Positions 21,777 to 25,780 of a DNA stretch of 64,000 bases are shown one piece after another. Under the pieces are notes generated by a model, which was not told the origin of the DNA, ran no database searches, and saw only the letters and a list, made by a program, of their open reading frames with translations. Origin of the DNA: Deltaproteobacteria bacterium. GTDB lineage: Bacteria; Desulfobacterota; Desulfarculia; Adiutricales; JAFDHD01. A program made the position numbers and the translations under genes. Position 1 is the first letter of the stretch, and the number at the start of each line of letters is the position of its first letter. The stretch is from NCBI GenBank assembly GCA_019308995.1, contig JAFDHD010000003.1, positions 1 to 64,000 on the forward strand, written 5' to 3'.

Positions 21777-23170
21777 GCGGGTTCAGTCTCACCCTTGCCG
21801 AGGTGGCGCAGGCTCTGAGGCTTGAGTCTGAGGCAAACTATGCCCGGCTTACTTTTCCCGGCGTGAGTACGGATACCAGGAATCTAAAAGGCGGTGAACT
21901 ATTCGTGGCCCTGAAAGGCGAGCGATTTAACGGGCATGATTATCTGAAGCAGGCTTTTGATAAAGGAGCGGCGGCGGCTGTGGTTAATCGGCATGGGGAG
22001 CTGAAGGGCCGCCTAATGCTGAGAGTACCTGACACCCTGCGGGCTCTGGGAGACCTGGCGGCTTACCTCAGGCGGCGTCAGACCCTCAAGGTTGTTGCCA
22101 TAACCGGCTCCAATGGTAAGACCACCACCAGAGAGATGACGGTCAGGATTTTAAAACAGTCATTCAACGTCCTGGCGGCGTCGGCTAACTTCAATAACCT
22201 GATCGGTCTGCCGCTGACCCTGTTTAACCTCAGGCCGGAGCACCAGGTGGCCGTTCTGGAAATGGGTACGAACAGGTTTGGAGAGATCAGCCGCCTGACG
22301 GAAATCGCCGACCCGGACGTAGCCCTGGTGACCAGCATTGCCCCGGCTCACCTCGAAGGGTTGGGCGGTCTTGAAGGAGTGGCTCGTGCCAAGGGTGAGC
22401 TTTATGATGGGTTGAAAAACGGGGCCGTGGCGCTGGTCAACCTGGATGACCCCCTGGTAGTCCGGATCGCCGGGACTTACAGCGGGCCGCGTTTGTCTTT
22501 TGGTTTCAGCCGCCAGGCCGAGGTGCAGGCTCGAAAACTCAAGCATCGAGGCCTTAAGGGCTCCGGCTTCGAATTGGTGACCCCCAAAGGATCAGTAACG
22601 GTCAGGCTTCCACTGTACGGTCGGCATAATATCAGCAACGCCTTGGCTGCAGCGGCAGTGTCCCTGTCCATGGGAGTTACGCCGGCTCGAATTCGAGACG
22701 CCCTGTCCGGGATGAAGCCTTTTCCCGGGAGATTGGAGCTGAAACGGCTATCCGGACCGATTTACCTCCTGGATGACACGTACAATGCCAATCCGGTCTC
22801 GGTCGAGGCGGCCCTGTCCGTGCTCAAGCGCCTGAAAGGCCGGGGACGGGCGGTGGCCGTATTGGGAGATATGTTCGAGCTGGGAGCCGAGAGCGAAGCC
22901 GAACATGCCCGGATAGGTCGAGTGGCGGCAGAAACCGGTTTGGACCTGCTGGTCGGAGTCGGTCCGCTGGCCAAGGTTCTCATCGGCTCGGCCCGCCGGA
23001 CTGGTTTGTCCAGGGACAGACTGCACTGGTTTGAAGATCAAGACCAGGCCGGTCTTTGGCTCAAGGCCGAATTACGCCCCCTGGACCGAGTGCTAATCAA
23101 GGGGTCCCGAGGCATGCACCTGGAAAGAATTGTCAGCTGTCTTGAAAGGCAGGAAGGAGGCCAGGGGTGA
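21773..23170 (+). CDS. murF: UDP-MurNAc-tripeptide:D-Ala-D-Ala ligase MurF
   Basis: A 465-aa Mur ligase that adds D-Ala-D-Ala. [19 protein letters not shown] is the P-loop, [12 protein letters not shown] and [20 protein letters not shown] are MurF signatures, and [16 protein letters not shown] is a C-terminal motif. It starts at TTG 21773 inside the murE stop (TTGA overlap) and ends overlapping the mraY GTG (GTGA). The D-Ala-D-Ala ligase that would supply its substrate is not in this cluster. Confidence 0.95.
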
Positions 23171-24246
23171 TCTATCATATCCTCTATCCGCTCCATACCG
23201 TTCTCCCGGTTTTTAACGTCTTTCGTTATATCACCTTCAGGACCATTTATGCCTCCATGACCGCCCTTCTGATCAGTTTCATCATCGCTCCCTGGTTTAT
23301 TCGGAAGGTCAAACAATATCAGATCCGCCAGTACATTCAGGAGGATGGCCCGGCCGCCCACCAGAACAAGGCCGGAACCCCAACCATGGGCGGGGTCTTT
23401 ATTTTATTTTCATCCCTTGTGGCCGGCCTGCTTTGGGCCGATCTGACCAATATCTATATCTGGCTTTTGATCTTCGTGGCGCTCGCTTTTGGATTGATCG
23501 GCTTTTTAGACGATTTCCTCATGCTCCGCCGCAAGAACAACAGGGGCCTTTCCGTGCGGTCTAAGATTTTCTGGCAGGTTGTTGTCGCGCTGGGTGTGGG
23601 GATCTTCCTCTATCTTTATCCTGATTATGATACCCGGTTCGCCGTTCCCTTTTTCAAAGGAGTTCAGCCCGACTTGGGTCTGGGTTATGTACTGCTTGCG
23701 GTTCTGGTTATCGTCGGCGCCTCTAACGCCGTCAACCTGACCGACGGACTTGATGGGCTGGCCATCGGGCCTTTCCTGATCGCCATGGGCACTTACCTGA
23801 TTTTTTCTTATCTCGCCGGGCACGTGAAGATCGCAGAGTATCTGCAGATACCATTTTCTCCTGGCGTCGGCGAGGTCACAGTCCTCTGCGGGGCTCTGGC
23901 CGGGGCAAGTATCGGCTTCCTGTGGTTCAACACCTATCCGGCTCAAATCTTCATGGGCGATGTCGGTGCTCTGCCTTTGGGGGCTTTGCTTGGTACGGTG
24001 GCATTGCTGGTGAAACAGGAATTACTGCTTATTTTAGTCGGCGGCATTTTTGTCATCGAAACGATCTCGGTCATTATGCAGGTTGGGTTTTTCAAGGCCA
24101 CTAACGGCAAGCGGATCTTCCGCATGGCTCCGGTGCATCATCACTTTGAGCTCAAGGGTTGGGCTGAGCCCAAGGTTATTGTCAGGTTCTGGATCATTGC
24201 CGCAATTTTGAGTCTGATTGCCATCAGCACCTTGAAGCTGAGGTAG
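23167..24246 (+). CDS. mraY: Phospho-N-acetylmuramoyl-pentapeptide transferase MraY
   Basis: A 359-aa polytopic membrane enzyme with about ten helices that makes lipid I from UDP-MurNAc-pentapeptide and undecaprenyl phosphate. [11 protein letters not shown], the aspartate pair in [21 protein letters not shown], and [23 protein letters not shown] are the diagnostic motifs. The GTG start overlaps the murF stop. A 50-codon ORF follows 8 bp later, before murD. Confidence 0.97.
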
Positions 24247-24254
24247 AGGGATCA

Positions 24255-24407
24255 ATGGTCAAGGGAATTCGTCTGTTCTGTCAACATTTCTTCAACCCGT
24301 TGCATCTTTACTGCCGTTTTCTTGACCTGGGCCTGCCGCCGAGTTTATCACGGCGAGTCTGCTATCTGTATGAACGCTTGCTCATAGCGCGAGGTCGTAA
24401 CTTGTGA
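24255..24407 (+). CDS. Small 50-aa protein between mraY and murD
   Basis: An ATG-to-TGA ORF of 50 codons filling the mraY-murD gap. AGAGGG precedes the ATG with near-ideal spacing, and the TGA overlaps the murD start (TGATG), the arrangement used by nearly all other genes in this cluster. The peptide contains FFNPLHLYCRFLDLGLPPS, then SRRVCYLYERLL, with three or more Cys, many aromatic and Arg/Leu residues, and no signal peptide. A central amphipathic helix seems possible. I recognise no named family. Without it, mraY and murD would be 160 bp apart, unlike any other pair in the cluster apart from the ftsQ-ftsA gap. Confidence 0.6.
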   Translation: MVKGIRLFCQHFFNPLHLYCRFLDLGLPPSLSRRVCYLYERLLIARGRNL

Positions 24408-25780
24408 TGGTTGAACTCCAAATAGAGACTGCATCGGATCTGGCCGGCCGGCGGGTGGTGGTGGTAGGCCTGGCCCGGACCGGACTGGCCGTGGCCGAGT
24501 TTCTGCTCAGCCAGGGTTCAGAAGTGGTGGCCACCGATATTTTGCCTGCCGAAAGATTGGACGAACAGATCAAGACCCTGGCCACGAGGGGCGCGGTCCT
24601 GGAACTGGGAGGTCACCAGAATGAGACCTTCCTGGAAGCGGACTTGATTGTGGTCAGCCCGGGCGTGCCGCCGACGATCCAGCCGCTTCAAATGGCTTTG
24701 GCCAAGGGTGTGCCCGTCATAGGGGAGCTGGAGTTTGCTTCATTTTATGTTACCGCGCCTCTCATCGCAGTCACCGGCACTAATGGCAAGTCCACCACGA
24801 CCGCCCTCATCGGCGAAATACTGCAGGCGGCTGGCAGGAGGGTCTTTGTCGGTGGAAACATCGGGAACCCGCTCATGAATGCCGTCAACAGCAGAGAGAA
24901 GTTCGATCTGGCCGTGGTTGAGGTTTCCAGTTTTCAACTGGAAGGTGTGGAATCATTCCACCCGAAGGTAGCCCTGCACCTGAACCTGACGCCGGACCAT
25001 CTGGATCGTCATGTTCATTTTAGCGCCTATGCCGAAGCCAAGGCCCGCCTTTTTTCTCGTCAGACTACGGATGACACGGCGATTTTGAACGCAGACGATG
25101 ATCAGGTCGCCGCGATAAGGACCCGGGCCAGACGCCTTATGTTCAGCCGCAGGCATGAGCTTGGAAACGGGGCCTTTATTAAAGAGGGAAAGATCGTCCT
25201 GGCTCAAGGCGGCCGCCCGCTCGGGGAGCTGCCGCTTGAAGAGCTGAGCCTAACGGGCAGCCATAATCATGAAAACGTCATGGCTGCCTTGCTGGCAGCC
25301 TGGGCTTTGGGAATCGAAACAGAGACCACCCTTGAGGCTGCGGCGCGCTTTCAGGGGTTGCCTCACCGGGTTGAATTCATCGGTCGGTATGGCGGCGTGC
25401 GTTACTACAACGATTCCAAGGCCACGAATGTCGGAGCGGTTATCAGGTCTGTGGAAGGTTTCAGCGAGCCGGTTATCCTCATTGCCGGAGGGCGGGACAA
25501 GGACAGCGACTTCACTTTGCTTCGTCCGGCAGTCCGGGGGAAGGTCCGGTTCATGATTCTCCTGGGTGAGGCTCGAAAGAAGATGGCTCAAGCCCTAAAA
25601 GGCACAGGTGATTCCTGTTTTGCCCGGGACATGGCTGAGGCGGTCGCCTTGGCCAGGAAGAAAGCGAAACCCGGAGAGGTGGTTCTTCTTTCACCGGGCT
25701 GCGCCAGTTTTGACATGTTCACTGACTATGCTCACCGGGGCCGGGTCTTTACTGATCTGGTCCGGCGCGGGGACGCTTGA
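24407..25780 (+). CDS. murD: UDP-N-acetylmuramoylalanine--D-glutamate ligase MurD
   Basis: A 457-aa Mur ligase that adds D-Glu. The N-terminal VVVVGLARTGLAVAEFL binds UDP, AVTGTNGKSTTTALIGEIL is the P-loop, EVSSFQLEGV and LNLTPDHLDRH belong to the central domain, and YNDSKATNVGAV and LSPGCASFDMFTDYAHRG are MurD C-terminal signatures. ATG 24407 overlaps the small ORF stop by one base; a GTG at 24404 is also in frame. It ends overlapping ftsW (TGATG). Confidence 0.96.
   Translation: MVELQIETASDLAGRRVVVVGLARTGLAVAEFLLSQGSEVVATDILPAERLDEQIKTLATRGAVLELGGHQNETFLEADLIVVSPGVPPTIQPLQMALAKGVPVIGELEFASFYVTAPLIAVTGTNGKSTTTALIGEILQAAGRRVFVGGNIGNPLMNAVNSREKFDLAVVEVSSFQLEGVESFHPKVALHLNLTPDHLDRHVHFSAYAEAKARLFSRQTTDDTAILNADDDQVAAIRTRARRLMFSRRHELGNGAFIKEGKIVLAQGGRPLGELPLEELSLTGSHNHENVMAALLAAWALGIETETTLEAAARFQGLPHRVEFIGRYGGVRYYNDSKATNVGAVIRSVEGFSEPVILIAGGRDKDSDFTLLRPAVRGKVRFMILLGEARKKMAQALKGTGDSCFARDMAEAVALARKKAKPGEVVLLSPGCASFDMFTDYAHRGRVFTDLVRRGDA

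Follow-up and report, generated by a model that had tools for sequence, protein, structure and literature searches.

The region considered here lies in the dcw cluster of the window (the whole 64,000-nucleotide stretch of a Deltaproteobacteria bacterium contig that was analysed), at the junction of mraY and murD. The space between the mraY stop (24244-24246) and the GTG of murD (24404) measures 157 nt and is occupied by an ORF of 50 codons that begins with ATG (Table 1). A preliminary description of this DNA had correctly recorded that the ORF fills the gap and that its stop (TGA, 24405-24407) overlaps the start of murD. The same description credited it with a good ribosome-binding site; a GAGGG is indeed found, but its spacing to the ATG is only 4 nt and we regard the site as moderate.

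Table 1 Features at the mraY-murD junction of the window, with the basis of each assignment
Feature	Position	Strand	Basis
mraY, 359 aa, upstream gene, 8 nt before the small gene	23167..24246	+	ORF; homologues across the class
Putative Shine-Dalgarno GAGGG, 4 nt 5' of the ATG, sharing the last base of the mraY stop	24246..24250	+	Sequence
50-aa gene, NPLHxYCR small-protein family: MVKGIRLFCQHFFNPLHLYCRFLDLGLPPSLSRRVCYLYERLLIARGRNL	24255..24407	+	ORF; congener orthologue; family profile match
Family core H11-FF-NPLHLYCR21	24285..24317	+	Alignment of family members
murD, 458 aa, downstream gene; GTG start overlaps the small-gene stop by 4 nt	24404..25780	+	ORF; name from sequence and dcw order

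Since an ORF of this kind is expected in about 6% of random gaps with the same size and base composition, its length and position are weak evidence alone, and conservation must decide. In a congener (G001), the corresponding mraY-murD junction contains an ORF that is just as long, with 67% identity. The two genes differ at 43 nucleotides, distributed as 15, 5, and 23 over codon positions 1, 2, and 3, so that second-position changes are rarer than expected by chance (P about 0.001), and stops are present in every other frame of one or both copies. The preliminary description had proposed a test for purifying selection, and the NG86 estimates (dN of 0.20 and dS of 1.33, with a dN/dS of about 0.15) speak for it. 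With an orthologue in the congener and this codon-position pattern, the ORF is a genuine gene maintained by purifying selection. The alternative of an open frame arising by chance in an untranslated spacer, for which only the 6% figure can be brought forward, has a negligible probability, ruled out as it is by the orthologue, the codon-position pattern, and the homologues found across the phylum and in viruses. The unannotated gene with an ordered NPLHLYCR motif that had been pointed out there is thus borne out by the congener orthologue and the family homologues, and the outcome named as its refutation (no homologs and a broken frame) did not occur, as homologues were found and the frame is open in the congener.

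From sequence comparison, the gene is a member of a so far uncatalogued family common to bacteria and phages, whose tiny proteins are basic, 45 to 60 aa long, and predicted to form three helices, with the motif QHxxNPLHxYCRL...YER. The first profile, built from three sequences (the window gene, its G001 orthologue, and one from a Pseudodesulfovibrio MAG), matched 46 of 395 genomes of the phylum at an E value of ≤0.01, with up to five copies per genome, and 41 aligned members gave the consensus QHxxNPLHxYCRLxDxG...AxxLCRxYER. When the family is defined by an HxxN[P]LHx[YF]CR[LF] core and a GL...YE(R) helix within 45 to 60 aa, the window protein falls inside it, with the core at residues 11 to 22 (HFFNPLHLYCRF) and YER at residues 39 to 41. 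N14 is the same in all of 84 non-redundant members, and H11, H17, C20, and R21 are so in nearly all, although in the viral members the scan pattern partly imposes the stretch from N14 to R21; at position 36, Cys is often replaced by Ala or Ser.

AlphaFold2 predicts helices at residues 3 to 12, 15 to 24, and 29 to 49 of the window protein (mean pLDDT of 82 and pTM of 0.54), and its net charge is +6. By inspection it has no long hydrophobic stretch and no obvious transmembrane segment, and it has no Pfam, NCBIfam, or PHROG match, so neither of the two marks of a phage holin, a transmembrane segment and a holin family match, is present. Searches of Pfam, NCBIfam, PHROGs, and PDB sequences gave no usable match for this protein or for the family, and in a curated-library scan of 41 members no family was matched by more than one of them (best E value, 0.0042). 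The weak single-member matches were to phrog_16433 (E value of 0.0042) and phrog_20844 (E value of 0.048), both PHROGs of unknown function, and a likeness of this kind, seen in 1 of 41 members each, is not evidence of membership. A match to COMMD4 (E value of 0.016 over 20 residues) was judged to be due to chance. Foldseek comparison of the predicted structure with PDB and BFVD found nothing significant, the best, insignificant PDB match being a group II intron maturase. Three queries found no match in annotated phages (INPHARED), plasmids gave a single match at chance level, and a literature search for the motif strings found no paper.

Most bacterial copies adjoin unrelated genes (hemW, uvrB, and argB). 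In two genomes (L055 and L071) the family gene ends 3 to 4 nt from a convergent uvrB, and in L068 and L074 there is a 4-nt overlap between it and the start of hemW. The neighbourhoods of the 42 other family loci that we compared are mutually unrelated, except for close relatives with a common context, and none of them includes a MraY or Mur ligase homologue. A strong family match was also seen in a Pacearchaeota MAG (L010:4932-5201), between LemA-like and HtpX-like genes; it is isolated, as 99 relatives lack a comparable match, and may possibly reflect transfer or misbinning.

At the level of the class, a family profile of 41 sequences matched only the two species of the genus (G000 and G001, one copy each) among 63 genomes, although MraY was detected in 57 of these. 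At the 30 mraY loci examined, murD mostly starts within about 10 nt, and in the nearest family tested (G005, with a MraY 72% identical) the spacing is 7 to 13 nt, so most of the other junctions measured have no room for a small gene because the two genes nearly abut. Four genomes of the same order (G021, G004, G033, and G037) have mraY-murD spacers of 130 to 190 nt, and a family member is absent from all four spacers. Given its presence in 2 of the 63 genomes and the near-abutting or family-free junctions elsewhere, the small gene is a genus-specific insertion at mraY-murD. The conservation of NPLHxYCR at this junction, which the preliminary description had expected across Desulfobacterota, holds within the genus but not beyond it.

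At least 53 viral contigs encode a family member, according to a scan of IMG/VR, whose contigs are predicted viruses. This first scan gave 53 loci, 41 of them non-redundant by family gene, and a second profile gave 29 more, partly on the same contigs. Among 140 genes within 1.3 kb of phage copies, Pfam identified GTA_holin_3TM, GH108, and PG_binding_3 three times each, Phage_holin_4_1 once, patatin five times, and DUF5675 twice, while PHROGs identified four holins and three endolysins among the genes within this distance. The comparison of near and far genes by library scan is the fairer control, and none of these near families is among the 25 families listed for 143 genes of the same loci at a distance of more than 2.5 kb (2.5 to 6 kb), single-member families being only partly included in those listed. 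In a count by locus, to which we attach no P value since its seed genes were picked from the near neighbourhood after inspection, a holin-, endolysin-, or patatin-type gene lies nearby in 14 of the 41 non-redundant phage loci, usually just downstream and on the same strand, and in two of seven new loci from the second scan a GH108-like endolysin is adjacent by eye. Lysis-type neighbours are found in a minority of the phage loci, up to about one third, and the window copy itself is not in a phage.

The relation to known lysis cassettes is one of position: in roughly a third of the phage loci the family gene lies near a gene of the GTA_holin_3TM (PF11351) or GH108 endolysin (PF05838) type, or near a patatin gene, usually just upstream and on the same strand. 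Unlike the products of these genes, the family protein has no holin-type transmembrane segments, no enzyme domain, and no Pfam match, and unlike phage lysis-cassette genes the family also occurs as a chromosomal orphan. At one bacterial locus (L058) the family gene is part of a prophage lysis cassette, nearly identical to the viral contig L114, and another such locus (L076) lies inside a prophage, judged from gene content. Many other phage copies sit among capsid, replication, or unknown genes, and for this reason lysis is not the whole story of the family. In a group of large-phage-like contigs (L085, L092, L097, L135, and L222) the family gene is surrounded by a similar arrangement of genes, none of them for lysis, and the family thus has another phage niche. 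In a tree of viral and bacterial members, which is weak with 49 columns, the two are intermingled. At least 15 switches were counted, where shuffling gave a mean of 28, which agrees with several transfers and a degree of lineage structure.

The family domain is also found fused to membrane proteins. In G114 (L067:5113-6186, minus strand) and G078 (L077:5113-6186, minus strand) it forms the N terminus of a 357-aa protein of the PAP2 superfamily of lipid phosphatases (PF01569, PF14378), with PF01569 E values of 1e-14 and 4e-13, and G147 has a frame of the same length. The window gene, by contrast, is the small domain alone, and both fused copies examined have lost the conserved Cys, C20 being replaced by Ser or Ala. 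Phages show in-frame fusions to putative membrane segments (L086, L095 and its relatives, and L118); that of L086 looks holin-like by eye, which Pfam did not confirm. In L093, L095, L101, L104, and L120 the phage protein consists of the family domain, a hydrophobic segment, and a further C-terminal part, which in L095 was scanned with no Pfam match, and the next gene codes for a patatin-like phospholipase. Such fusions together with the patatin-like gene could possibly be a phage membrane-attack module. Overall, the fusions suggest that the family domain would be membrane proximal, on the cytoplasmic face. A small phage-type protein in a setting that touches MraY recalls the lysis protein E of PhiX174, an inhibitor of MraY. 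E is a transmembrane lysis protein, and no sequence relation between the two is seen or claimed.

Because of the lysis-type neighbours and the membrane-protein fusions, the reading that we prefer, tentatively and with somewhat less than even confidence, is that of a phage-circulated small protein in the dcw cluster that acts as an adaptor or regulator at the membrane face. A family of basic helical proteins of 45 to 60 aa would circulate between phages and bacteria, and the window gene would be a chromosomal, vertically kept copy. We infer that an ancestor of the genus received the gene by transfer at the mraY-murD junction of its dcw cluster, that the gene is translated together with the wall operon, and that its small product would bind membrane proteins or the membrane surface from the cytoplasmic side. 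In phages this product would serve the late or lysis stage, and in this genus it may have a partner in the membrane on which it acts, with wall synthesis as a plausible setting.

It is possible, if rather unlikely, that this is a moron-type or selfish small gene, useful to its phage or to itself (in exclusion or regulation, for example), that came to lie in the dcw operon by chance and has no relation to the envelope. The patchy distribution, the multiple copies, the unrelated contexts, and the phage copies outside lysis cassettes would all fit, whereas it speaks against this reading that two diverged congeners have kept the gene at a single site under purifying selection, and the enrichment of lysis-type neighbours and the membrane-protein fusions point to the envelope. 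We consider improbable a micro-regulator that binds metal through H11, H17, and C20 (with C36 in some members), or RNA or DNA through its basic helices; the near-invariance of these three residues and of N14 and R21, the positive charge, and the maturase as best fold match would agree with it, but that match is not significant, the two PAP2 fusions examined have Ser or Ala instead of C20, and C36 is often substituted.

A small accessory of lipid I synthesis, binding MraY or coupling it to MurD, seems equally improbable to us. A role of this kind had been suggested in the preliminary description; both congeners do have the gene at the mraY-murD junction, where its stop overlaps murD, and the PAP2 fusions hint at polyprenyl-lipid chemistry. 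A dedicated accessory is nevertheless not supported, because the gene is absent from 61 of the 63 class genomes, most junctions have no room for it, and mur genes are not found near any of the other family members examined; the position, which should be conserved across the lineage for such an accessory, was found only in the two species of the genus. A conserved role in lipid I synthesis is likewise not supported, and a genus-specific cell wall role is possible. More specific, and very unlikely in our judgement, is a domesticated phage late or lysis protein whose target at the inner membrane would be MraY or the undecaprenyl-lipid machinery and which would tune lipid I production, the domain fused to PAP2 phosphatases and phage membrane proteins then being a general module that addresses lipid-linked wall precursors.

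These results name a widespread family of tiny proteins, common to bacteria and phages, that curated libraries have missed, and provide five near-invariant residues (H11, N14, H17, C20, and R21) as targets for mutation. Should the link to the membrane or to lysis in our preferred reading prove true, the family would open a new way to study how infection is ended by phages, and the window gene would be an example of a phage gene kept within an essential cell wall operon.
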